Shown here: one piece after another, positions 2,357 through 61,188 of the stretch
Layout: every line of letters starts with the position of its first letter
Position numbering within the stretch: position 1 is the stretch's first letter
Source: Thermotogae bacterium
GTDB taxonomy: Bacteria; Thermotogota; Thermotogae; Mesoaciditogales; Mesoaciditogaceae
Assembly: GCA_026988035.1 (NCBI GenBank)
Contig: JALSLY010000009.1
Span: 1 to 64,000 of the forward strand
DNA: 64,000 nt
Reading direction: 5' to 3'
Translations under genes and position numbers: made by a program
The notes under the pieces: model-generated
What the model saw: the letters and a program-made list of their open reading frames with translations, nothing else
Database searches by the model: none
What the model was told of the DNA's origin: nothing

Positions 2357-3189
2357 AGATGAGACCACATATTCGAAAGCTCCTCGTGGTCCTTGTTTTG
2401 GTATTTTTTGCAGCCATCTTTGCCTTTCCTTTTTATTGGATGGTAATAACATCTTTTGAGCCTTTGAAAGATTTTATGAAACTTCCACTTGTGTTTTTTC
2501 CTCGACATTTTATTCCTGAAAATTACATAAGGGCTATTCATTATATGCCGTTCTTTAAGTATTTTTTGAATTCAAGCTGGATTGCGATCATGTCAACTAT
2601 TGGAACAACTTTAACCTCGTCATTTGTAGCCTATGGTTTTTCGAAAATAAAATGGCCAATGAGAGATTTAATATTTATGATCACGTTGGCTACTATGATG
2701 ATCCCTTTTGTTGTTCTTATGATACCTCTTTACATAGAATTCAAAAGCTTCGGATGGATCGGTAGTTTCAAGCCTTTATGGGTTCCTGCATGGTTTGGAA
2801 GTGCATGGAGTATTTTCTTTTTAAGGCAATTTTATATGACGATTCCTTCTGAACTAGTAGATGCTGCAAAAGTTGACGGAGCTTCTCACCTTCAGATATG
2901 GTTTAGAATAGCTTTACCATTGACGAAACCAGCTTTATCTGTGGTTGCTTTATTTAACTTCATTTGGTCATGGCAATCTTTTTTGCAACCTTTAGTCTTC
3001 CTTAACAATAAAGATATGTACACTTTAACTTTAGGATTAGCGTCATTTCAACAAAGGCATGGAGGAGTGGAATGGAATCTTTTGATGGCTGCTGCTACTT
3101 TAGCAACTATTCCCATCTTGATTATTTTTGTGTTCATGAACAAATATTTGATAGAGGGTATACACATAACTTCTGGCTTGAAGGGATGA
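2353..3189 (+). CDS. Sugar ABC transporter permease, MalG/UgpE type
   Basis: This is the second membrane subunit of the importer. The 278-residue protein has an N-terminal membrane helix, the DAAKVDGA EAA-loop motif with an IALP turn in its second half, and the short C-terminal IEGIHITSGLKG tail typical of MalG-like subunits. GGAGAGG precedes the ATG, and the start overlaps the stop of the first permease. Its stop overlaps the start of the following PHP gene, so all three are probably co-translated. The substrate is unknown. Confidence 0.92.
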   Translation: MKMRPHIRKLLVVLVLVFFAAIFAFPFYWMVITSFEPLKDFMKLPLVFFPRHFIPENYIRAIHYMPFFKYFLNSSWIAIMSTIGTTLTSSFVAYGFSKIKWPMRDLIFMITLATMMIPFVVLMIPLYIEFKSFGWIGSFKPLWVPAWFGSAWSIFFLRQFYMTIPSELVDAAKVDGASHLQIWFRIALPLTKPALSVVALFNFIWSWQSFLQPLVFLNNKDMYTLTLGLASFQQRHGGVEWNLLMAAATLATIPILIIFVFMNKYLIEGIHITSGLKG

Positions 3190-4484
3190 TAGTACAGATG
3201 CAAAGTGTGAATTTCGAATTTTCCGAGAATGAACAATTTTCTACTAAACTTTTTCGTTTCGATGTTAAGGAAGGAACAAATAAACTTTCTTTAAGGTTTG
3301 TTTATAAAAATGTTGGAATTGTCAAGAATGAGTTAAAAGTCTTGGTCTATGATTCCTGTGGAGAATTCAGAGGCTGGATGAGTCAAGAAAAGCGAGAACT
3401 TCTTATAGCGATTAAAGAGGCAAGCGTCAACGGCATAAAAGGATATATTCCCTCTGGTGAATGGATGATATTGATTGAATCAGGAACAATTTTGCATGCA
3501 TTAAGGTATACAGTTGAGATATCTCCTCAGGTCGGGGAAATACACAAAAATTGGTACACAGGAGAGTTGCATTCTCACACAACGAGAAGTGATGGAACCA
3601 TGTGTCTAAGTGAATTGATTAATGAAGCAAAAAAACACAAATTAGATTTCCTATTTGTTACCGATCATGATATGCCATTACGTAGAAATAATGAACTTGA
3701 CAGCGATCTAAAAGTGTTTCCTGGTGTTGAAATAACTTCCTACAAAGGACATGCGTTAGCACTTGGAATTGAGAGGCATATAAACCCCCAATTAATGGCT
3801 GAAAATCTTGAGCTTTCATCGAAGTTGGTAAGAAATGATGGAGGAGTTTTCGGAATAGCGCACCCCTTTTTCCCCCCAAGTCCCTATTGTAGTGGCTGTA
3901 AATGGAGTTACAAATTATCACCTGCAAGTATAGACTTTTTGGAATTGTGGAACAGTGGGGGAACGGCTTCTTTTTTTCCGGGTTTCAATTTAGCTACTTT
4001 GTCTTTATGGGTAGGGTTCTTAAATAAAGGCTTAAAAATATGTGCAACCTCGGGAGGGGATATTCATAATGATAAGGATTTTAACGATCTTTGGCTCCCA
4101 TATCATGTTCGAGCAACTGAGCTATCACTTAAATCGATTATTTGTTCTATAAAGACTGGAAAAGGGTATGCATCCAAGGAAAATTTTTATTTTGAGGTTC
4201 TCTATAAGGATAAAAAATATTATTGTGGAGATACCATCAATGTAGCTAAAGATGACTTTGTAGAAGTAATGGCAAGTTCCGAAGCGGCTGACAAAACTTT
4301 GTTGTTAACTTCTGCTGGAGTTATGAATTTTGATACTTCTTCTTTTAATAAAAAATTCCGGGCTCGAGATGTGAAATGGTTAAGTATCTTGTTTTTGCAT
4401 CGTGAAACGATTGTCGGTTTTTCAAATCCCGTTTTTCTACGTATCTTAGGAAATTCTAATGCTCAAGTGGAAGAACAAAAATGA
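3186..4484 (+). CDS. PHP-domain metallohydrolase (CehA/McbA-like)
   Basis: The middle of the protein is a PHP domain, a trinuclear-metal phosphoesterase fold. It has GELHSHTTRSDG, then FVTDHDMP, FPGVEITS, GIAHPFFPP and ATSGGDIHND, which supply the expected His/Asp metal ligands. The roughly 110 residues before it look like a beta-rich domain, as in CehA-type proteins. I chose the ATG at 3186 because it overlaps the permease stop; 3198 is also possible. The frame is open further upstream, but that part is a shadow of the permease gene. Position in a sugar importer operon suggests it removes a phosphate or ester from the imported compound. That role is inference; the fold is clear. Confidence 0.8.
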   Translation: MIVQMQSVNFEFSENEQFSTKLFRFDVKEGTNKLSLRFVYKNVGIVKNELKVLVYDSCGEFRGWMSQEKRELLIAIKEASVNGIKGYIPSGEWMILIESGTILHALRYTVEISPQVGEIHKNWYTGELHSHTTRSDGTMCLSELINEAKKHKLDFLFVTDHDMPLRRNNELDSDLKVFPGVEITSYKGHALALGIERHINPQLMAENLELSSKLVRNDGGVFGIAHPFFPPSPYCSGCKWSYKLSPASIDFLELWNSGGTASFFPGFNLATLSLWVGFLNKGLKICATSGGDIHNDKDFNDLWLPYHVRATELSLKSIICSIKTGKGYASKENFYFEVLYKDKKYYCGDTINVAKDDFVEVMASSEAADKTLLLTSAGVMNFDTSSFNKKFRARDVKWLSILFLHRETIVGFSNPVFLRILGNSNAQVEEQK

Positions 4485-5525: not shown

Positions 5526-6590
5526 ATGTCCACATTTGCTGAAGAAATCGAAGAACAACCTAAAGCTTTACAAAAACTGATAGACAATATTTCGTCGATA
5601 GAATATGGTGTTTCCAAAATCGCCTCTAAGGTGTCGAGAATTGCCTTTTTTGGTATGGGAAGCTCGCTGTATTCTGTATTTCCCGCTGTGTATCTCTTAC
5701 GTGCTTCAGGAATAAGTGCAGACTATTATGATGCTTCTGAAGCTTCTTGGTATTTACCCAAAGAATGGTTCAAAAAAGTGGATGTCTGTGTATTGGTTTC
5801 GCAATCTGGAGAAACCGTAGAGATCCGCAATCTCATTGATAAAATTAAAGATACGAATGTTGTTAAAATAGGAATAACAGCTAATATCAATAGCTATCTC
5901 TGGGCAAATTCAGACATCACGTTGGACATATTATCAGGCAAAGAACGATCTGTTGGTTCGACCAAGACGCATATGAACTCGGTAATTGCTAATATTTTGT
6001 TTTCAATGATCATCACAAGACAATTGGAAAGGGAAATAAGAAATGTTCAAAAATTACCTCACATGTTAGAAACTGTTATAGTCGAAGCTCATAAAGACGT
6101 AGATGTGCTTTTAAATTCCGGGATCGTAGATAAAATAGACGGTTCAATCATCACATCCAGAGGATTTGCTTTAGGTGAGGTATATCAATCTGCTTTAACT
6201 TTGAATGAAATAGCGCGAGTAAATGTGTTTCCTATATCGGCTGGAATGCTAAAACATGGCCCCATGGAACTTTTTGTGGACAAACGTGGAATGATCTGCT
6301 TTATTCCCGACTCACCAAACAGGCATTTATTGATCAAACTTTGTCGTGAAATTTCTAATAAATCCGGGTTTACTTGGATCATATCTAATAGTACTGTAGA
6401 AATGAATGATATGCTGTCTGTGTCTGATAGACTGATTTTTGCCAATTCGGTGAACGCTGATTTGCCGGAGTATCTCCAGAATTTGCTTTTCCTTCCGTAT
6501 GTACAAATTTTGTCTTATAGAATCAGAAAAGCAAAAAAAATAGCAGACGACGATTTTCACTTAATAAGTAAAGTGACAACGGAGGAATGA
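5526..6590 (+). CDS. SIS-domain sugar-phosphate isomerase/deaminase (GlmS-C/AgaS-like)
   Basis: The protein has two SIS domains like the isomerase half of GlmS. Visible elements are FFGMGSSLYSVF, the phosphate loop VSQSGETVE and GSTKTHMNS in the first domain, and SAGMLKHGPMEL in the second. Length (354 residues) fits stand-alone aldose/ketose isomerases or hexosamine-phosphate deaminases. The ATG at 5526 is preferred because GGAGGT lies nine bases upstream; a GTG at 5517 abuts that site. It is followed after four bases by a PfkB kinase, so it probably forms a ketose phosphate that the kinase phosphorylates again. The exact sugar is inference. Confidence 0.8.
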   Translation: MSTFAEEIEEQPKALQKLIDNISSIEYGVSKIASKVSRIAFFGMGSSLYSVFPAVYLLRASGISADYYDASEASWYLPKEWFKKVDVCVLVSQSGETVEIRNLIDKIKDTNVVKIGITANINSYLWANSDITLDILSGKERSVGSTKTHMNSVIANILFSMIITRQLEREIRNVQKLPHMLETVIVEAHKDVDVLLNSGIVDKIDGSIITSRGFALGEVYQSALTLNEIARVNVFPISAGMLKHGPMELFVDKRGMICFIPDSPNRHLLIKLCREISNKSGFTWIISNSTVEMNDMLSVSDRLIFANSVNADLPEYLQNLLFLPYVQILSYRIRKAKKIADDDFHLISKVTTEE

Positions 6591-6594
6591 TCAC

Positions 6595-7557
6595 ATGACA
6601 GAACAAGCTTATGTTGTAGGAAACCTGAATATAGACGTGATTATAGGAAATTTTAATGACTGGCCTGAAATGGGTTCAGAGGTTACCGGTGATTTTTTCG
6701 ATTTTAGATATGCAGGAGCAGCTGGCAACAGCGCCATAGCACTTAATAAACTGGGCTTTGACACCCATGTAATATCTGCTATTGGTAGTGACGAAATGGG
6801 AGAAAATTTTGTTCGAACTTTAGAAAAAACAGGAATAGATCTTTCAAAGTGCAAAGTGGGACCTGGGAAAACTGGGATATCAATAGGGATAACCACCAAA
6901 AAGGATGAGAGAACTTTTTTTACTTTTCTTGGAAACTTGAGTAATCTAAATAACGATTTCTTTTTTGAAAAGATTAAAAATATTCACCGTTCCTGGATTA
7001 TAATATGTGGGTTTAATCTTATTTCGGCTTTTCAAGAGGAACGTTTTGTTGACATTGTAGAGTTGATGAAATCTAATGAAAATAGAATTTTGTTTGATCC
7101 AGGTTGGCCACCCGATGGTTGGACCGAGAGAGAAACAAAACAGGTATTGCAAATAGCTAAACTAAGTGATTGGTTCGTTCCAAATCTGAAAGAAGCCTTG
7201 GCAATATCGCAAAAAACCTCTTTGGACGATTCCTTAAATTTTTTCAAGAAGCGAGGAGTTCATAGTTGTATTGTCAAACTTGGAAAGGGAGGAGCTCAAG
7301 GTTTTGTAGATACTGATAATGTTTCAACTCATGCTTTTTATTTTGGAGACATAAAAGACACGGTAGGAGCTGGTGATATGTTCAATGCTGCTTTATTGAA
7401 AGGTATATCTTTAGGTTGGAAGAATGTTGAGGCAGTGAAATTTGCCACTTTTTATGCTTCTCTTGGAATAACTAAGATTGGCGAACACAGATATTCAACT
7501 TTTGGTGAAGCGTATCGTAAGTTTCAAGAAAAGACCCAAAATGCAAATAAGGATTAA
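6595..7557 (+). CDS. PfkB-family sugar (phosphate) kinase
   Basis: This is an ATP-dependent ribokinase-family kinase of 320 residues. It begins VVGNLNIDVI, has the GAAGNSAIALNKLG substrate-binding stretch, and ends with the catalytic anion-hole motif DTVGAGDMFNAALLKG, where the aspartate is the base. The ATG follows GGAGGAATGATCAC. Directly downstream of a SIS isomerase and upstream of GH4, it may phosphorylate a ketose 6-phosphate (for example tagatose-6-P or fructose-6-P) to the bisphosphate. It could equally act on a free sugar. Class assignment is firm; substrate is open. Confidence 0.87.
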   Translation: MTEQAYVVGNLNIDVIIGNFNDWPEMGSEVTGDFFDFRYAGAAGNSAIALNKLGFDTHVISAIGSDEMGENFVRTLEKTGIDLSKCKVGPGKTGISIGITTKKDERTFFTFLGNLSNLNNDFFFEKIKNIHRSWIIICGFNLISAFQEERFVDIVELMKSNENRILFDPGWPPDGWTERETKQVLQIAKLSDWFVPNLKEALAISQKTSLDDSLNFFKKRGVHSCIVKLGKGGAQGFVDTDNVSTHAFYFGDIKDTVGAGDMFNAALLKGISLGWKNVEAVKFATFYASLGITKIGEHRYSTFGEAYRKFQEKTQNANKD

Positions 7558-51642: not shown

Positions 51643-52254
51643 TCATTTTTTCTGTTTCAACCTTTTCATACGGAAAAAATCATCTCTCTCTGATTCTTCT
51701 ATGTACGATTCTATGAATTTTACCGTTTCTTTGTATTGAGGAATGAGAACATTCTCAAGTGCGTTAACTCGGCGTTGAGTTTTCTTTATCTCTACAGCAA
51801 GTCTGTAAACAGTTGTTTCTATCTCTGTGAGTCGTGCTATCAGGGAAAGCGCACGTTTAAACGCTTTGTGAGCCTTATCTAAATTAGCATCCGTTCTCAC
51901 AAATCCATAAGAAGGAGTTATAGAATCATCTATTTCGTTGATATCCGGAATCTCAACTCCCATAATACTTCTAAGTCGTATAGAAAGATCGTCAACTTCT
52001 TCTACGGCTAAACCTACTTCTTCAACGTGCTCTATACCTATACTTAAGTTCGCTCTCTGAAGGCCTTCATAGGCTTCATCGAAGACCGTTTCCATGCTTT
52101 CCTGAATTTCTCGAGCAGAGTCAATGAAGCGCATCATTTCACGGATAAGAACGTTTCTTTTCTTGTCAAGGAGCGTATGCCCTTCAATAGCAAGTGCGAG
52201 AGCTCTCTTTGTTTCTATGAGTTTGCTTTTAGTCGGGGAGACTCTCTCGGCCAT
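51643..52254 (-). CDS. atpD: V/A-type ATPase subunit D
   Basis: This is the central rotor stalk subunit, 203 residues, almost wholly helical coiled coil. The N-terminal VSPTKSKLIETKRALALAIEGHTLLDKKR and the C-terminal RRVNALENVLIPQYKETVKFI are the conserved ends. It is the last gene of the ATPase operon and starts one base after subunit B's stop. It ends 14 bases from the convergent transketolase gene, leaving no room for a separate terminator. Confidence 0.96.
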   Translation of the reverse strand: MAERVSPTKSKLIETKRALALAIEGHTLLDKKRNVLIREMMRFIDSAREIQESMETVFDEAYEGLQRANLSIGIEHVEEVGLAVEEVDDLSIRLRSIMGVEIPDINEIDDSITPSYGFVRTDANLDKAHKAFKRALSLIARLTEIETTVYRLAVEIKKTQRRVNALENVLIPQYKETVKFIESYIEESERDDFFRMKRLKQKK

Positions 52255-52255
52255 T

Positions 52256-53641
52256 TCAATTCTCTCCTATTTCTTTATAATACTTTTTCAATTCTTCTTC
52301 ACTGACACGCGTAAGTTCTGAGGGTGGCAGATTTCCAAGCAGCTTCCAGCCAAGATCAAGGGTTTCCTCTATGGATCGATCTTCATCGTACCCTTGTGAA
52401 AGAAATTCCCTCTCAAAAGCGTCACCGAATTTCAAATACCTTCTATCGATATTGGTAAGTTCTTCTTCTCCTATTATAGAAGCAAGTGCCCTGACCTCTT
52501 GAACTCGGCTATATGCAGCAAAAAGCTGGCTTGAAACGTGCGGATGATCTGCACGTGTGTAACCTTCACCTATGCCATCCTTCATGAGCCTTGAAAGGGA
52601 TGGAAGAATGCCTATAGGTGGGTAAACTCCTTTTCTTTGAAGTTCGCGACTCAAAACTATTTGCCCTTCGGTTATGTAGCCGGTTAAGTCTGGTATTGGA
52701 TGCGTAATATCATCGTTTGGCATCGACAAAATTGGTATTTGTGTAACAGAACCTCTTTTATTCCTTATCATGCCAGCTCTTTCGTACATGCTTGCCAAAT
52801 CGCTGTACAAATAACCAGGATAACCCTTTCTCGACGGGACTTCACCCCTAGATGTAGAAAGCTCACGCAGCGCTTCACAATAGTTTGTCATATCTGTAAG
52901 TATGACAAGTACATGCATGCCTTTTTCAAATGCAAGATATTCTGCAGCTGTAAGCGCTACTCTTGGGGTAGCTATCCTTTCAATAGTTGGATCATCCGCA
53001 AGGTTCAAAAAAGTTACGACATTTTTGATAGCACCGGATTCTTCAAAATTGGAAAGCATAAACCGCGCGTCATCATGTTTTATCCCCATTGCTGCAAATA
53101 CTATTGCAAAATTGCCACTTTCTTCTCCTTTGATCTTTGCTTGCTTGGTAATCTGAACGGCAAGCCTATTATGTGGGAGTCCATTGCCAGAGAATATCGG
53201 GAGTTTTTGGCCACGTATTAGAGTCATCAACCCATCTATTGCAGATATGCCTGTTTGGATAAAATTTCTTGGGTACATCCTCGAGGCGGGATTTATGGGA
53301 AACCCGTTTATGTCTTGATAGACACCGTTTATGATGTCAACACCACCATCTATAGGTTCACCTATTCCGTTGAAAGTCCTTCCAAGAATTTCTTCGGAAA
53401 CTTTAACTTGGAGCGTTTTTCCAAGAAACTTGACCTTAGTTTCATTTACATTTAGACCTTCCGTTCCTTGAAAAACCTGAACAACGGCAAATTTGTCACT
53501 TATTTGAACAACTTGCCCAATCCTTGTTTCTTGACGAAAAGTAACTTCAACAACTTCGTTGTATCCTACATTGCCAACGTTTTCGATAAATATCAATGGT
53601 CCATTTATTTGAGAAAGTCCCATGTACTCTTTGAGGGGCAT
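52256..53641 (-). CDS. atpB: V/A-type ATPase subunit B
   Basis: This is the non-catalytic regulatory nucleotide-binding subunit of the A3B3 head, 461 residues. There is no true Walker A; the site reads [17 protein letters not shown], as in other B subunits. [31 protein letters not shown] and [21 protein letters not shown]-type segments are present. It lies four bases after subunit A. Assignment is secure. Confidence 0.97.
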
Positions 53642-53644
53642 GCA

Positions 53645-55432
53645 TTACGCCTCCTTTACTTTTTCGTATTTTTCATCAAGCGAGTCAAAGAAGCTTCTAA
53701 TAGTCTGTTCTATTTGTTTGAAATACTCAAGCTTATCATTTGAAACTGTTTCTTTCATTCTCATTAAAGTATTTACGATCTTTTCTTCAAGAACTTCAGA
53801 GATTGCTACACCTTTTGAAATTAGACTGTTAGCACGATCATAGTACATGAGAATGATCCTTAACATCTCATGTTGCTTATGCATATCACAGAAAGCATCC
53901 ACATCGCTGAAGGCACTTTGCTGCAAATATCCTACTTTTAGAATGTTTGCGACACGGACGATAAGTTTTTGATCGTCGGGCAAAACATCCTCGCCAACAA
54001 GTTTTATGATTTGCTGAAGATTGTTGTCTTCGCTAAGGAGGCTCATAGCTCGTTTACTTAATTTCGAGAAATTGGGATCGACATTTTGTTCAAACCAGTC
54101 TACAAGTTCTGTTGTGTATTCACTGTAACTATCTAACCAACTTATTGATGGATAATGCCGTGCATTTGCCAAAGATTTGTCAAGTGCCCAAAAACAACGT
54201 ACGAATCTTTTGGTATGTGTTGTAACAGGCTCCGAGAAATCCCCACCTGGAGGAGAGACAGCCCCAATAATTGAAATCGATCCGTTTTGGTCTTCTGAAC
54301 CAAGGATCCTGACTCTTCCGGCACGTTCATAAAACTCTGCTATTCTTGAAGAAAGATAAGGAGGAAATCCTTCCTCAGCTGGCATTTCTTCAAGACGTCC
54401 AGAAATCTCCCTAAGAGCCTCTGCCCATCTTGAAGTTGAATCTGCCATAAGTGCCACGTTGTAGCCCATATCCCTAAAATACTCTGCTATTGTTACGCCT
54501 GTGTATATAGAGGCTTCACGTGCGGAAACAGGCATATTAGAAGTATTGGCGATAAGAATGGTACGTTCCATCAACGGTTTGCCGCTTCGTGGGTCCATTA
54601 ACTTTGGAAATTCTTCAAGAACTTCCGTCATTTCATTGCCACGCTCACCACAGCCTATGTACAATATAATATCGGCATCGGCCCATTTTGCAAGTTGATG
54701 TTGTGTTACAGTCTTGCCAGTTCCAAACCCTCCTGGTATTGCAGCAGCTCCACCTTTACTTATTGGGAAAAAGGTGTCTATAACTCTCTGTCCAGTTATC
54801 AATGGTTCTGAAGGAGCCAGCCTTTCTTTATAAGGTCTGGAAACACGAACCGGCCAATTTTGGTAAAGTTTTACTTCGTGTTTCTCATCTTTAGATTCGA
54901 CTATCATCAAAACGGTATCGATCGTGTATTTTCCGGATTTCTGGACTTTTGTTGCTTTTCCGGAAATATTAGGAGGAACCATGATTCGGTGTTCCACCGC
55001 TGAAGTTTCGTTCACCTTTGCCACTATTTGACCTTCTTTGACTTCGTCACCTTCGTTTACTAAAATTTCGACATCCCATTGTTTTTCAAAATCAAGAGGT
55101 TCCGCAGAGATTCCTCTTTGAAGGAAATCACCGGATTTTGATCTCAAAACCTCTAATGGTCTTTGTATGCCATCAAAAACACTACCTATAAGACCAGGTC
55201 CAAGCATAACCGACAAAAGTTTACCGGTTCCTTCAACTGGTTCGTTAGGTTTGAGACCGGACGTTTCTTCATAAACCTGAATCGTTGCTGTATCGCCTTC
55301 GAGCACTATTACTTCTCCGGTTAATTTCAACTTTCCAACCTTTACCACCTCATGCATCATGACTCCCGTCATTTCCTTTGCTTTAACAACAGGACCATTT
55401 ACCATATAGATCTTACCTGCTCTTTTATTCAC
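53645..55432 (-). CDS. atpA: V/A-type ATPase catalytic subunit A
   Basis: This is the catalytic subunit, 595 residues. It has the N-terminal barrel, the bulge domain unique to A subunits (about 115-190, [16 protein letters not shown]), Walker A as [12 protein letters not shown] near residue 235, [13 protein letters not shown] with the catalytic Glu, and [16 protein letters not shown] as Walker B. No intein interrupts the P-loop, although inteins are common at this spot in archaeal homologues. Start is GTG, 13 bases after subunit E. Confidence 0.97.
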
Positions 55433-55445
55433 AGCACATCACCTG

Positions 55446-56057
55446 TCATGATTTAAGTTTCGAGAATAGTATAGAAGAAAATCTTTCCTTAATCTCTTCA
55501 AACTTGTTCTCGAGAGTGTTTTCGATGATCACACGACCATCTTCCGTTTCTACTATTACTCCACCAATGATGTCAGCATCTTCCTTCGAAAGATGAATGT
55601 CAACATCTTTCATTTCTTTTTTTAAAATGTCGAGGATTTTTTTGATTGTGGACTTGTCTTTCTTCCTGACTTTCACAACAACTTTTTTCTCTTCAAGAGC
55701 CTTAATCGCTTCGACGGTTGTTCTTTTGAGAAAATCTGCATAAGCTTCGTTATTTGTGATTCCACTTATCTTCTCCCTTAACTCGTCTATAGCAGTTCTT
55801 AAAATTTCATTTCGGGCATCCATAAGCATCTTTGAACACTTAGCGGAAGTTTGGGATATTTCGCGACGTATCAACAAGTCGGCATGTCTTTTTGCCTCTT
55901 CAATAATCTCATTGTAACTGTTTTCTGCTTTAACAACATAGCTCTCCTTTATTTCTTCTACGCGTTTTTGTGCATCTTTCACAATGCTATCAGCGTCAGA
56001 AGCTGCCATGGACTTGACATACTCCTTCAAAGAGCTTAATTTTTTCTCTATATTCAC
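55446..56057 (-). CDS. atpE: V/A-type ATPase subunit E (peripheral stalk)
   Basis: This is a 203-residue peripheral stalk subunit. The N-terminal half is a long charged coiled coil (ADSIVKDAQKRVEEIKESYV), and the C-terminal half is a mixed fold with ADIIGGVIVETEDGRVIIENTL, the hallmark of subunit E. The GTG start overlaps subunit F by four bases. It pairs with the coiled-coil subunit H encoded at the operon start. Confidence 0.93.
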   Translation of the reverse strand: MNIEKKLSSLKEYVKSMAASDADSIVKDAQKRVEEIKESYVVKAENSYNEIIEEAKRHADLLIRREISQTSAKCSKMLMDARNEILRTAIDELREKISGITNNEAYADFLKRTTVEAIKALEEKKVVVKVRKKDKSTIKKILDILKKEMKDVDIHLSKEDADIIGGVIVETEDGRVIIENTLENKFEEIKERFSSILFSKLKS

Positions 56058-56365
56058 TTCATTTTCACCCCTATCGCTTCTCGAACATAACGAGTGATAA
56101 AGTCTTTGGGCCTTTTGGTTCCGTGTCTGTCTGGGATGATGGTCAAGAGAGGAAGCGACCTTGATGTCCTTAATCGACGTACTGCTTCAGGAATAAGAGT
56201 CGCTATCTTCTCGGTCATAAGAATTATTCCAACATCTTTCCTCTTTTCGACTTCGTGTAACAAGGATAAAATCTCTTCCTTCTCATGAACAACTGCACCC
56301 TTAACGCCAACCAATCTCATTCCGATCTGGGTGTCTATGTTGTCGCTGATGAGAAAGAATTTCAT
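56054..56365 (-). CDS. atpF: V/A-type ATPase subunit F
   Basis: This is the small rotor subunit, 103 residues, with a receiver-like alpha/beta fold. FFLISDNIDTQIGMRLVGVKG at the start and DVGIILMTEKIATLI in the middle are standard, and PLLTIIPDRHG precedes the C-terminal helix. ATG at 56365 is preferred, with GGAAGGG upstream; a TTG at 56374 overlaps the previous stop. It binds the top of subunit D. Confidence 0.93.
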   Translation of the reverse strand: MKFFLISDNIDTQIGMRLVGVKGAVVHEKEEILSLLHEVEKRKDVGIILMTEKIATLIPEAVRRLRTSRSLPLLTIIPDRHGTKRPKDFITRYVREAIGVKMK

Positions 56366-56370
56366 TGTGC

Positions 56371-56829
56371 TCAAACCCTTCCAAAAATCATTATAGAGAT
56401 GATCAAACCATATATGGCCACGCCTTCTGCAAGTCCAACATATATAAGCGTTCGACCAAGCATGTCAGGTTGTTCACTTATAGCACCTATTCCTGATGCT
56501 CCAGCTATTCCAACACCAATTCCAGCTCCCATCGCGGCTAAACCAGTAGAAAGACCAGCACCAATGTATCCGAGACCCGGATTGATATTCGCTGCAACGG
56601 AAGTTGCTGCAGAACTCGTTGTAGCGGCAAGAACATGACCATCTGGAATCAAAGAGAGAATTGCAAATGTCATGAACCCGAACAAGGAAACCATATTAAC
56701 TCCCAGAGTTCTCTTACCTACTTTTACAGGAGAGTTCACGTGTTCCATAACCTTTTTGTTGCTGAAAATTACTCCGAGAGCTATGGTGGTGAACACGACT
56801 AAAGACATCAATACGAACAAAACAAACAT
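56371..56829 (-). CDS. atpK: V/A-type ATPase proteolipid subunit K, glutamate-bearing copy
   Basis: This is a c-ring proteolipid, 152 residues with about four helices. The last hairpin is the c-type unit: PGLGYIGAGLSTGLAAMGAG and IYVGLAEGVAIYGLIISIM. Glu135 (codon GAA at 56427-56425) matches the ion-binding Glu of Enterococcus NtpK. It is the only one of three tandem K genes that keeps it. The first two helices are more divergent and carry no second site. GGGAGGAG precedes the ATG. Confidence 0.93.
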   Translation of the reverse strand: MFVLFVLMSLVVFTTIALGVIFSNKKVMEHVNSPVKVGKRTLGVNMVSLFGFMTFAILSLIPDGHVLAATTSSAATSVAANINPGLGYIGAGLSTGLAAMGAGIGVGIAGASGIGAISEQPDMLGRTLIYVGLAEGVAIYGLIISIMIFGRV

Positions 56830-56845
56830 TTTAAAACTCCTCCCT

Positions 56846-57307
56846 TCAAATTCTACTCATTATAAGTATGGATATTATAAGACCGTAAGTTGCAACTCCA
56901 TTTGCAAGTCCCGCAAATATCATGGATTTCCCAAGAATTCTTGGATTGAATCTCAAGATGTTTATAGACTTGGCACCAACTATTCCTGTTCCGACACCTG
57001 CACCAAGTGATGCAAAACCTGTTGAAAGTCCGGAACCAATATATCCAAGACCTGGATTTATAAGGGTGGTTGCAATTTTGGTTATTCCTTCGCTATTTGC
57101 AATAGGTGTTGCCATCGCTTTGTCGGGAGAAACCATAACCAATCCAAATAACATAAGAGAACTCAAGACTCCTAAGTTGGAAATTATCAGCCCTTTTAAT
57201 TTCCGAATATAACAACTTTTAACAAATAGATTTTTGTTCAAAACGGTTTCTAACATCAATATTGTTATCGTAAGAGTGCTAAATATTCCTACAAACACAA
57301 AGGGCAT
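56846..57307 (-). CDS. V/A-type ATPase proteolipid subunit K paralogue with Asn at the ion site
   Basis: This is the second K paralogue, 153 residues from the ATG at 57307 (the frame is open from a GTG at 57316). The C-terminal hairpin reads PGLGYIGSGLSTGFASLGAG and FAGLANGVATYGLIISILI. The residue aligned with the ion-binding Glu is Asn (codon AAT, 56902-56900). The body is otherwise a normal proteolipid without frame damage, so it is probably made and may sit in the ring as a non-transporting subunit. Its 3' part is almost identical in DNA to the neighbouring K gene. Confidence 0.9.
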   Translation of the reverse strand: MPFVFVGIFSTLTITILMLETVLNKNLFVKSCYIRKLKGLIISNLGVLSSLMLFGLVMVSPDKAMATPIANSEGITKIATTLINPGLGYIGSGLSTGFASLGAGVGTGIVGAKSINILRFNPRILGKSMIFAGLANGVATYGLIISILIMSRI

Positions 57308-57325
57308 ATTGATCACCAGATTTCT

Positions 57326-57793
57326 TTAAATTTTACTGAGAATGAGAATAGAAATTATGAGGCCGTAGGTTGCAACTCCATTTGCAAGTCCCGCAAATAT
57401 CATGGATTTCCCAAGCATTCCAGCATTTAAACGACCAATCCTTATCGAAGCGCTGCCAACTATTCCGGTTCCCCACCCAGCGCCGATAGAAGCTAATCCG
57501 GTTGAAAGGCCTGCACCAATAAATCCAAGACCTGCAGAAGTAAGTGATTTCATCGCTGATGATATTGACGAGTTCATGGCTGCTGCTGTTATCTTATCTG
57601 GGGTGAGAAACAACGCAAGAAGAGCAAGACCAATGATGATATTTCCTCCAAGAGCTGTGTATTTGATTAACTTTACATCCGGGTTCTCTTTTCTTCTCTT
57701 TTTTTGTGTTCTTAGTATATTTCCCCTGAAAACCAGGAAAGATATCAACATCATCAAAAAGACTAGAAAAACAAGGAGTTGGAAAACTGTCAT
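57326..57793 (-). CDS. V/A-type ATPase proteolipid subunit K paralogue with Asn at the ion site
   Basis: This is the first K paralogue in transcription order, 155 residues. It has a charged loop after helix 1 (RTQKKRRKENPD) and the c-type hairpin AGLGFIGAGLSTGLASIGAG plus FAGLANGVATYGLIISILI. Asn138 (codon AAT, 57382-57380) replaces the ion-binding Glu. The start overlaps subunit I by four bases, so it is translationally coupled and presumably expressed. Function as a passive ring member, an assembly factor or a modifier of gearing is possible. Confidence 0.9.
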   Translation of the reverse strand: MTVFQLLVFLVFLMMLISFLVFRGNILRTQKKRRKENPDVKLIKYTALGGNIIIGLALLALFLTPDKITAAAMNSSISSAMKSLTSAGLGFIGAGLSTGLASIGAGWGTGIVGSASIRIGRLNAGMLGKSMIFAGLANGVATYGLIISILILSKI

Positions 57794-59733
57794 TCGATAT
57801 CACCTTCCAAGAAAAGGAATGGACGAAAGTCTTTTCCACTAGCTTCAAAAAATTTTGTGAAAAATTCATAATATACAAGTCTGAGATCCTGGATGAAAAC
57901 GACTAATCCTTCAAGACCAACAAGCATGAATTGACCAAGAAGGAATATGATCACTGCCCATACACCTCCACCTGGCGATGGCAGGACCATTAACGCCATA
58001 ACCCAGAAAGCAAGAAACAGGGCTTCATGTGTCAGTGCGAATGCTGCAAGTCTTACGTATGAGATAGCGTTGCTTAAAAATGAAATGAGCGTTTCGAACA
58101 TTCCAAAGCCAGCTTCAACCCAAAAACCTTTTGGCAAAGAGACTTTTTGATGCGAAACAAGTTGTCCGAGAATTTTCTTGAAAAACATCGCGATCAAGGA
58201 TGCAATTAAAGTGATAGTTAGCATCATACCGTTGAAAGGAATTTTTCCACTGATGAAATAAAAAGAAACTGCCACGATTGAGGGCCAATAGAAGGCTAAG
58301 CCTGCTATACCTTGTGCGCTAAAAATAGCCTTTTCCCAATTTTTTTGTCTGAAGCCATTGATGATGTTTAAAATCATACCAAAGCTCAACATACCTATTC
58401 CAAAATATATTGAGACAACAAGAAGTTGATTTATTTGTAAAATGGGTCTCAACCATAGGGCTGGTATCCAATCTTCAAAGCCAAAAACGGAACCGTACAT
58501 AAAACCAAAGAAAACTGATGACAATGCAGCACTCATCATAACCGTTCCAAATTTTTTGGAGCCTTTTTTGTGCATAAAGTATCCAAAAAGGAAAAGTATC
58601 GTGCCGTGAGCTACGTCTCCAAGCATAAACCCAAACATGAATATGAAAAAAGCAGTGACATATGGTGTTGGATCTATCTCACTATAATTAGGGGTCCCAA
58701 ACATCTTGGTTATGAATTCATAGCCTTGAAAAAGGAACCCTTTATTTTTGAGTTTAACTGGGATATCGATCTTTTTATCTCTTGGAAGCAATTCAGCTGG
58801 CTTGTTGATCATCAAAACATTTTCGTCCAGCTTCTTACCCAAATTCTTAACATCATCTTTTGGCATCCATCCACTCACGAAGTAAAGATTTTTCCCTGGT
58901 GTGCTATCATTGAAAGCCGCAAGATCGTAAATTCTTTTGTGCGCAAGAACAGTTGAGTAAACTTTGTCTATGAATTCTTTGCTAGCGTACAGAACTTTCT
59001 TTATCGCACTGTCATTTTCTTTTATGGATAATTTAGTGATTTCTATCAGGGATTCTATTCTTTCTTTAACTTCGTAAGGTGTTCCACGATAATCAACCGG
59101 CAATTTGTCTTCTTCAAAATAAGCAGATTGAAGGATTTTGTGAGCTTCACCCATGAAATCCGGTGTGGTAAAAACGAAAATCCAAGAATTGTCTTTGTCT
59201 CTGTTCACTTCAAGAACAAGGATTGGAACATTAAGTGAAGATTCAACAAGTGTCTCATAATGTCTTACTGGAACTCTACCAAATATCAGCTTTATTCTTC
59301 TGATCTCAGCGAGGTTCTCAAGCTCGACGTTCAAATTCACAAGAACTTTAACGTGAAAAAGCACTTTATTGTAGTCCTGAAGTTTTTTGTTAAGTTCATT
59401 ATTTTTGTCAAAGAAAGCTCTTACTCCCTTGTTCATGAGGCGAAATCTTTTGATAGCAGCCTCAACATCTAAATCTTCCCCGAGTTCGACCCGCTTTTTA
59501 TCAAACGGAGGCCTATAACCAGTAATTTTCAAAAAGCTGGTCATCTCGTTGTACAGTTCTTGATATGGATTTTCGCTTTCTCCGTGAAAGAGTTCTTTGG
59601 ATATTTCATCGTCAATGATCTCTTGAAATGGCATTGGTTCAAAAGCATTAGAAGAAATGAGATTCAAATGAACCTTTTCTAACTCCTTCTTGGAAAAAGC
59701 AAGTGTTACATTTTCCATTTTCGTTACAGCCAT
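57790..59733 (-). CDS. atpI: V/A-type ATPase subunit I (a subunit)
   Basis: This is the stator membrane subunit holding the ion half-channels, 647 residues. The first half is a cytoplasmic, partly coiled arm with YFVSGWMPKDD near its end. The second half has about eight helices starting after DPTPYVTAFFIFMFGFMLGD. SYVRLAAFALTHEALFLAF contains the essential Arg next to the ring. All expected pieces are present. It lies between subunit C and the three K genes. Confidence 0.95.
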   Translation of the reverse strand: MAVTKMENVTLAFSKKELEKVHLNLISSNAFEPMPFQEIIDDEISKELFHGESENPYQELYNEMTSFLKITGYRPPFDKKRVELGEDLDVEAAIKRFRLMNKGVRAFFDKNNELNKKLQDYNKVLFHVKVLVNLNVELENLAEIRRIKLIFGRVPVRHYETLVESSLNVPILVLEVNRDKDNSWIFVFTTPDFMGEAHKILQSAYFEEDKLPVDYRGTPYEVKERIESLIEITKLSIKENDSAIKKVLYASKEFIDKVYSTVLAHKRIYDLAAFNDSTPGKNLYFVSGWMPKDDVKNLGKKLDENVLMINKPAELLPRDKKIDIPVKLKNKGFLFQGYEFITKMFGTPNYSEIDPTPYVTAFFIFMFGFMLGDVAHGTILFLFGYFMHKKGSKKFGTVMMSAALSSVFFGFMYGSVFGFEDWIPALWLRPILQINQLLVVSIYFGIGMLSFGMILNIINGFRQKNWEKAIFSAQGIAGLAFYWPSIVAVSFYFISGKIPFNGMMLTITLIASLIAMFFKKILGQLVSHQKVSLPKGFWVEAGFGMFETLISFLSNAISYVRLAAFALTHEALFLAFWVMALMVLPSPGGGVWAVIIFLLGQFMLVGLEGLVVFIQDLRLVYYEFFTKFFEASGKDFRPFLFLEGDIE

Positions 59734-59742
59734 AAAATCACC

Positions 59743-60828
59743 TCAAAACGGCCTTATAAGATAACTCTTTATCTCGTCGGGTTTCATGCTGTATCTTACG
59801 CCTTCTGTGATAGTTGTTATATCCATTATCTCATATTCTTTAAGGTAAGAATAATGAAAAAAAGGAGCAATTGAAAATCCTCCAAGCACGGATAAGGCTT
59901 TCTTTGCCTTTTTATAAAGAAATCTCCTTGCACTTCGCGTTACCATATCGGGAGTTACATTCGCTACATTGGCATTCAAGTCTCTCAAAATTTCTCTGTA
60001 AGGGCTATCTGCAATAACACTTAAGACTTCATTAGTGTTGCGAGCATCACACAATTTGTGAAGATCTGAAATGCTCAGTTTGAATCGCATAGGTATAAGA
60101 GAATTGTAAAGCTCCTCTGGTCTTAAAGTGTAAAATTCTTTTGCTCGCACGATCCATTCCATGTTTATAAGATCTGCTCTCTCTCCAACCATTTCTTTTA
60201 TTATCATGTAATCATCGTATTTTAGATTGACCGTGGCTTTCAGAATTCCAAAAAAGAGCCATCTATCAAGAGCATTTTCAATTGCTCCAACCAAATTTGG
60301 TTGCTCTCCTTTGTAACTTGCAAAAATATTTCTAATAACTTCTTGATATGGAGTGTTTTCTAAATTGCTGAGTATCTCTTCTTTACTTGAAGATGATGCG
60401 ATTTTCATCGGATCAATGAGTGCTTTGTTCCCTATATCATAAAATTTTCCTTTTAACTCCTGGATGTTTTTTTTAGCCTCCGACTCCATAAGAGCATTTC
60501 TTATTGCAAGCTTCAGATTTTCTACTTCGTACCTTCTCAGTATGTAACCTGCAAAAGTTCTGTCGAGTGTGACAAAAAAGGTAAAGAATTTCCTTACGTC
60601 CTTAACAAGATCGGCTTTTAGGATAGTCTCGAGATCCCTTCTATGGATTTCTTCGGCATTAACATTTTTTAAAGCATCAGAATACATAGAGGTTCCTTGA
60701 AGATACTTGGTGATTTCCGGAACCGATTCTTTAGCTATTAAAGCCTCATAATCTTTCTTCTTAAGGAACCTACTCGCCATAGCAGCCAATTTGGCTCTTA
60801 CCCCGGCGTAAGTTAAAATACTACCCAT
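59743..60828 (-). CDS. atpC: V/A-type ATPase subunit C (AC39/d type)
   Basis: This is the funnel-shaped subunit linking the rotor stalk to the c ring, 361 residues, all helical. Recognisable stretches are LTYAGVRAKLAAMASRFL, TLDRTFAGYILRRYEVENLKLAIR and a second repeat near DYMIIKEMVGERADLINMEWI. Its gene normally lies near E in archaeal operons; here it is placed between H and I. The ATG overlaps the H gene end. Confidence 0.92.
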   Translation of the reverse strand: MGSILTYAGVRAKLAAMASRFLKKKDYEALIAKESVPEITKYLQGTSMYSDALKNVNAEEIHRRDLETILKADLVKDVRKFFTFFVTLDRTFAGYILRRYEVENLKLAIRNALMESEAKKNIQELKGKFYDIGNKALIDPMKIASSSSKEEILSNLENTPYQEVIRNIFASYKGEQPNLVGAIENALDRWLFFGILKATVNLKYDDYMIIKEMVGERADLINMEWIVRAKEFYTLRPEELYNSLIPMRFKLSISDLHKLCDARNTNEVLSVIADSPYREILRDLNANVANVTPDMVTRSARRFLYKKAKKALSVLGGFSIAPFFHYSYLKEYEIMDITTITEGVRYSMKPDEIKSYLIRPF

Positions 60829-61150
60829 TTTTCTTTCCCTGAACGATTTCAGAAATAAATTCAGAAATTACAATATCTTTAACTTTGGTGTATCTTTCTT
60901 TTATGAGTTTGATTTCATCCTGAGTTTTCTTTATCATTTTCTCCGATTGAGTTTTAGCTTCAGCTTCGGCTTTTTCAACAATACCTTTGGCAATTTCCCT
61001 TGCTTCACTTATTCTTGAATTTAAGAGCGTTTTTCCTTCTTTATCAGCAACAACTATCATCTTTTTCGCTTTTGTTCTTGCCTCATCTACAAGATTTCTG
61101 GAGTCTTTTTCAGAGGCTATCAACTCCTTGACTATGTCTTCTACTTCCAT
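60821..61150 (-). CDS. atpH: V/A-type ATPase subunit H/G (peripheral stalk coiled coil)
   Basis: This is a 109-residue, nearly all-helical, charged protein. VDEARTKAKKMIVVADKEGK and ISEAREIAKGIVEKAEAEAK show the right-handed coiled-coil pattern of subunit H, the partner of E. ATG at 61150 follows AGGAGG at the right distance; a TTG at 61156 is too close. It is the first gene of the operon. Confidence 0.87.
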   Translation of the reverse strand: MEVEDIVKELIASEKDSRNLVDEARTKAKKMIVVADKEGKTLLNSRISEAREIAKGIVEKAEAEAKTQSEKMIKKTQDEIKLIKERYTKVKDIVISEFISEIVQGKKNG

Positions 61151-61188
61151 TTCCAAGACCTCCTTAACTCAGAAAGCAAACTTGCTTT

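Follow-up and report, generated by a model that had tools for sequence, protein, structure and literature searches.

Separately encoded proteolipids without the ion-carrying glutamate in a V/A-type ATPase operon of the Mesoaciditogaceae

How many ion-carrying carboxylates the proteolipid ring of a rotary ATPase needs, and in what spacing, is a central question for these enzymes. It is raised in natural form by a V/A-type (vacuolar/archaeal-type) ATPase operon of a Thermotogae bacterium of the family Mesoaciditogaceae (metagenome-assembled genome, GenBank assembly GCA_026988035.1, contig JALSLY010000009.1, positions 1 to 64,000; this whole stretch of 64,000 nucleotides is called the window below). 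A sequence-only reading of the window had pointed to three tandem proteolipid (K) genes with intact frames, of which the first two encode Asn where the third encodes the ion-binding Glu. Both points were borne out: the open reading frames of K1, K2 and K3 are all intact on the minus strand, and inspection of the codons by hand gave AAT at 57382-57380 for Asn138 of K1, AAT at 56902-56900 for the Asn of K2 and GAA at 56427-56425 for Glu135 of K3. The proposed correspondence of this site with Glu139 of Enterococcus NtpK was likewise confirmed by alignments to PDB entries, in which residues 86-152 of K1 were placed on NtpK 87-153 and residues 82-148 of K3 on NtpK 86-152, with the K1 Asn and the K3 Glu both landing gap-free on Glu139. 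Thus K3 carries the ion-carrying carboxylate of the second helix as Glu135 while K1 and K2 lack it, and by sequence the latter two are homologues of the K family and not ion-carrying K subunits.

We found eight Asn copies in five genomes of three genera. Among ten genomes of the order, which include that of the window (G000) and the other Mesoaciditogales genomes G001 and G005-G009, the set K1+K2+K3 is present in G000, G007 and G009, and the set K1+K3 in G005 and G006. The four members of genus g2 (Athalassotoga, including G001) have only K3, and G008 has K3 with a decayed K1/K2 remnant. Every other V-type K found in 103 Thermotogota genomes is a single gene with the Glu present. When the peptides LGKSMI[FY]A and ANGVATYG of the Asn copies were searched for in 84,980 species genomes, matches occurred in Mesoaciditogaceae only, in a scan that reaches close relatives only. 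Since the Asn recurs in all eight copies from five independent genomes, and is written with both AAT and AAC, sequencing error as its source is in practice ruled out. Around the Asn codon, K1 and K2 are nearly identical in DNA sequence over ~50 bases (57414-57360 and 56934-56880), which may reflect gene conversion between the copies. The eight Asn hairpins form one clade (support 100/100) nested beside K3 of the same family, and on this tree all Asn copies trace to one duplication. The K1 of the two-K genus clusters with the K1 of the three-K genomes (support 98/94), so the split of K1 and K2 is likely older than the genera, with K2 lost in one genus.

The substitution at the ion site does not stand alone. 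Asn-type and Glu-type hairpins have disjoint residue sets at 18 of 69 columns, seven of them within loop 32-39 on the cytoplasmic side, whose ISE(Q/K)P(D/E) is replaced by neutral or basic residues in the Asn types. The fixed differences E52N, V48A and I56T lie four residues, or one turn, apart on the same helix, and V23T of helix 1 falls at the position where Na+ c subunits have the ligand Gln32. These comparisons indicate that the Asn-type changes are a co-ordinated remodelling, not a single point mutation. Whether another carboxylate could fill the site was also checked: all Glu-type K proteins carry Glu52 and the loop Glu36 (hairpin numbering), while none of the eight Asn hairpins contains any Asp or Glu, and the acidic residues of their leaders are confined to the loop or to the outer end of the second leader helix. 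A Na+ site in K1 and K2 built from neutral ligands (the Asn and two Thr) was set aside by reasoning, because without negative charge it could not ferry a bound cation through lipid. K3 itself has Val at the Gln32 position and Gly-Val after the Glu; because the Na+ ligands are missing, it is most simply taken as a proton carrier.

The Asn copies have been retained under constraint. Between orthologues the hairpins have nonsynonymous rates (dN) of 0.013-0.070 against synonymous rates (dS) of 0.64-1.33, giving dN/dS of about 0.02-0.11, and 46 of the 69 hairpin columns are invariant in amino acid among the eight copies, 41 of these with synonymous codon changes. Judged by these rates the Asn copies are under strong purifying selection. 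A pseudogene reading of K1 and K2 was accordingly rejected, being contradicted already by the low dN/dS and the intact frames; only the G008 remnant answers to that description.

Each of the three proteins gives one full hairpin match to the Pfam family PF00137 (ATP-synt_C; 45.1, 52.1 and 69.6 bits for K1, K2 and K3 against a cut-off of 24), and Pfam and the solved c subunits match the last ~65-70 residues only. The first ~70 residues, of the same layout in K1, K2 and K3, consist of two helices joined by a basic loop (5-10 Lys/Arg in residues 21-46); the second helix ends in Pro-x-x-x-x-Ala or A-x-A, a feature conserved across Thermotogota K proteins. This leader end looks like a signal-peptidase site, in agreement with the presequence of Thermus K, and cleavage is predicted there. 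With the domain matches confined to the C-terminal part, the mature K proteins would probably be single hairpins of ~85 residues. Between orthologues the protein sequence of the leader varies far more than that of the hairpin, which agrees with this layout. K1, K2 and K3 share 14 invariant Gly positions. AlphaFold models were of modest confidence (predicted local distance difference test scores of 64 and 69) and were used for the hairpin only; the K1 hairpin gave target template-modelling scores of 0.73-0.80 against c subunits from Thermus and other sources; the Foldseek E-values of these matches were >0.1. A four-helix architecture of the NtpK type was rejected, since the Pfam and PDB matches span one hairpin only, and the likening to eukaryotic and NtpK four-helix rings made earlier therefore stands as an analogy but not as a shared architecture.

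Site-less hairpins in functional rings have precedents in the rotor of Acetobacterium woodii and Clostridium aceticum and in the duplicated V-type subunits (PMC7911925, PMC2359735). In the former, an F/V hybrid rotor also encoded by several proteolipid genes in one operon with the carboxylate replaced by an amide in some hairpins, c1 has Gln in one hairpin, which has been read as lowering the ion/ATP ratio of a mixed bacterial ring (PMC7911925). In that Na+ F-type enzyme a four-helix protein combines the site-less hairpin with a Glu hairpin, and Glu has changed to Gln, whereas the operon of the window is of V/A type and encodes whole single-hairpin site-less proteins separately, with Glu changed to Asn; the hybrid layout of a four-helix c1 with single-hairpin c2/c3 in an F-type operon differs from what we found, all three K proteins being single-hairpin. 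The eukaryotic V-ATPase c subunit and Enterococcus NtpK similarly arose when a hairpin was duplicated and one site was then lost, so that half of their hairpins are ion-free (PMC2359735). Here, unlike in those proteins, the duplicates stayed unfused, their ratio can vary because the genes are separate, and some genomes have two site-less genes for each Glu gene. The closest fold and architecture is the c12 ring of the Thermus thermophilus V/A-ATPase, whose proteolipid is a single hairpin with a presequence; unlike the Mesoaciditogaceae set, that ring is homomeric, with Glu63 in every subunit (PMC7367684). The earlier suggestion that a bacterial mixed ring with two inactive proteolipids was undescribed needs qualifying, since a mixed rotor with site-less hairpins is already known, while the wholly site-less, separately encoded proteolipid is new; separate single-hairpin proteolipids fully without the site, in a V/A operon and in variable dosage, were not found in the open-licence literature searched.

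The explanation that we favour, at roughly even confidence, is that K1 and K2 are ion-inert spacer proteolipids within a mixed K ring that lowers the H+/ATP ratio. The leader would be cleaved so that K1 and K2 each become a single c-type hairpin, and the conserved glycine motif would pack these hairpins beside the Glu-bearing hairpins of K3 in one ring. On passing the stator the Asn position would stay permanently neutral and exchange no proton, so that the protons moved per turn would equal the number of K3 hairpins, and H+/ATP would be that number divided by three and thus lowered. Such an enzyme would act as a proton exporter of low stoichiometry working against a high gradient, leaving ATP synthesis to a separate F-type enzyme. 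As an illustration, with 50 kJ/mol per ATP and assumed ratios of 4, 2 and 1.33 H+/ATP, the limits would be ~130, 260 and 390 mV. Leader cleavage, entry into the ring, the order and number of subunits, the altered stoichiometry and the pump role are all steps that we infer; the conservation, purifying selection, retained glycine motif and acid-free hairpins are consistent with them. The sequence-only reading had already raised the idea of a ring that takes in Asn copies and thereby has a lower ion/ATP ratio; this idea has gained support to that extent, with ring entry itself still conjectural.

Several observations weigh against this explanation. In the Bacillus PS3 c10 ring a single Glu-to-Gln change abolishes both synthesis and pumping, according to the passage of PMC8809890 that cites Mitome 2004. 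Fewer ions per turn is thus not an automatic consequence of an amide, as had been supposed, and would require the rest of the enzyme to be adapted (PMC8809890). The engineered PS3 ring with one cE56Q likewise has an amide for one carboxylate, and is artificial and inactive (PMC8809890), whereas the amide copies described here occur naturally, have been conserved and show remodelling at additional positions. The family is acidophilic, Mesoaciditoga coming from hydrothermal vents (PMC7795431), yet Athalassotoga (G001 and its genus) is acidophilic too (PMC7795431) and has K3 only; acidity alone is therefore an insufficient explanation, and acid habitat as the sole driver is weakened (PMC7795431). 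Furthermore, G008 has lost its Asn copies and kept an otherwise intact operon, so the copies are not essential to the enzyme. Finally, the ribosome-binding site is best in K3 and weakest in K2, and the Asn copies may be minor products. The predicted Shine-Dalgarno pairing across the family is about -11.6 to -12.0 kcal/mol for K3, -9.8 for K1 and -5.8 to -9.2 for K2, where the ATG at 57307 has a better site than the GTG at 57316; this ranking would allow K3 to be the majority subunit and fixes no ratio.

The stator was also compared across genomes. Subunit I retains both essential arginines. In Thermus, Arg622, the equivalent of Arg618 here, holds the rotor Glu together with Gln619 and Arg563 (PMC7367684). 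Two residues before Arg618 lies Asp616 (codon 57888-57886), which is present in six of six Asn-lineage genomes and in none of the other Thermotogota compared. It is one of 12 columns of subunit I fixed in the Asn lineage and marks a single branch, so we did not accept it as proven compensation and regard it as a lead, not as evidence of compensation. In G008, subunit I is altered near the first Arg, reading, unusually, ALMHGALF in place of ALTHEALF. Taken in its wider form, the proposal is of a natural rotary ATPase in which the ring mixes Glu-bearing and separately encoded site-less proteolipids, the ratio is tunable by gene dosage and stator changes such as Asp616, next to the essential Arg618, ease the passage of the neutral positions; we consider this tentative, a little short of an even chance. 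Because the genes are separate, the ion/ATP ratio could be set through gene dosage, by evolution or by expression, and the dosage does vary: one genus has K1+K3, two have K1+K2+K3, and Athalassotoga and G008 have K3 alone.

The main rival to the spacer function is that K1 and K2 are minor parts of the ring or of the membrane sector (Vo), in one or a few copies, with a structural job such as ring seeding or sizing, register with subunit C, a lumen plug or rotor inhibition, H+/ATP not being the selected trait. The yeast subunits c' and c'' are minor ring members with special roles. In all Asn copies the loop facing the central stalk has changed entirely from acidic (ISEQPD) to neutral or basic, which would also fit such a structural, register or inhibitory role, and the weaker ribosome-binding sites of K1 and K2 and their dispensability in G008 point the same way. 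A non-transport role alone leaves the remodelled ion-site positions (48, 52, 56 and 23) unexplained, and two distinct Asn genes have been kept; we consider this alternative less probable than the spacer reading, yet a serious one and by far the strongest of those weighed here.

That K1 and K2 form a membrane assembly of their own apart from K3, channel-like or as a lipid-associated proteolipid, is improbable. The loop that would contact the rotor shaft has diverged, as expected of such an assembly, but the strict position between I and F, the retained glycine packing motif and the exchange of K1-K2-K3 as one block speak against it. About equally improbable, or slightly more so, is spontaneous deamidation of the Asn-Gly pair at ~60 °C, which would leave mature K1 and K2 with Asp or isoAsp and hence with a carboxylate on a shorter side chain. 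Deamidation is slow within helices and membranes. Asn-Gly is the classic deamidation sequence and is conserved in all eight copies, growth occurs at 45-65 °C (PMC7795431), and Asp in place of Glu retains partial activity in PS3 (PMC8809890). However, all Glu-type K proteins have kept this Gly as well, so that Asn-Gly is inherited from Glu-Gly, and direct mutation to Asp would be simple, yet Asp is found in none of the eight copies. Least probable is that K1 and K2 are functionless duplicates in decay, a fate that the G008 remnant shows to be possible, since dN/dS is well below 1 between orthologues of both genes, all eight copies in five genomes are intact, and the Asn and its two flanking Thr are fixed.

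Two events in the family provide natural comparisons for the spacer proposal. In G008 (positions 2600-3600 of its locus) the K1 region has frameshifts and deletions, K2 is gone and K3 is intact; the genes for G, C, I, F, E, A, B and D, like that for K3, are full length or nearly so, and the enzyme can evidently exist without Asn copies. In G009, the segment that runs from the end of I as far as the K3 hairpin (window ~58000-56300; G009 locus ~5900-7300) is 79-86% identical to G000, whereas the flanking genes are mostly 53-78% identical and follow the genus Mesoaciditoga, and subunit I of G009 groups with that of G005 and G006 (support 100/100). Together these figures suggest that the three genes were transferred jointly and remained intact, the simplest reading being that the K1-K2-K3 block was swapped between genera by recombination in conserved flanks.

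The operon in the window is a complete V/A-type ATPase operon on the minus strand, in the order G-like, C, I, K1, K2, K3, F, E, A, B, D, with the three K genes between I and F. The proposed translational linkage holds strictly for I and K1, which share a 4-base ATGA overlap, but not for K2 and K3, which start 18 and 16 bases past the preceding stop.

Features of the V/A-type ATPase operon in the window
Feature	Position	Strand	Basis and remarks
K1, V/A-ATPase proteolipid, Asn138 replacing the ion-carrying Glu	57326..57793	-	Open reading frame, Pfam, alignment; 155 residues; hairpin without Asp/Glu
K1 leader: N-terminal helix, basic cytoplasmic loop, second helix ending PDKITA/AA (slash, predicted cleavage)	57584..57793	-	Consensus inspection
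K2, second Asn-type proteolipid	56846..57307 (ATG) or 56846..57316 (GTG)	-	Open reading frame, Pfam, alignment
K3, normal proteolipid with Glu135	56371..56829	-	Open reading frame, Pfam, alignment; 152 residues
Subunit I, stator a homologue, both conserved arginines	57790..59733	-	Pfam, comparison across genomes
Subunit C (AC39/d), same operon	59743..60828	-	Pfam
Peripheral-stalk G-like subunit	60821..61156	-	Pfam match below cut-off
Subunit F	56054..56365	-	Pfam; ATG at 56365-56363
Subunit E	55446..56057	-	Pfam
Subunit A (catalytic)	53645..55432	-	Sequence and homology across genomes
Subunit B	52256..53641	-	Sequence and homology across genomes
Subunit D (central stalk)	51643..52254	-	Pfam

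The same genome holds a complete F-type ATPase operon on a different contig. Its c subunit (contig 75, ~6328-6561) has Glu at the Gln32 position together with Glu-Ser-Thr and Tyr in helix 2, which is the two-carboxylate Na+ motif of Fusobacterium nucleatum, and the cell may therefore run a Na+ F-type and an H+ V-type enzyme in parallel.

Rings engineered to contain one amide are inactive, yet in this family amide copies have long been kept by evolution. The gene sets with normal and site-less proteolipids at 1:0, 1:1 and 1:2, together with a recent loss within one genus, make the relation between ring make-up and H+/ATP directly testable. If K1 and K2 are indeed spacers, the Mesoaciditogaceae would have found a second, fusion-free route to a low-stoichiometry pump, at which eukaryotic V-ATPases arrived by gene fusion.
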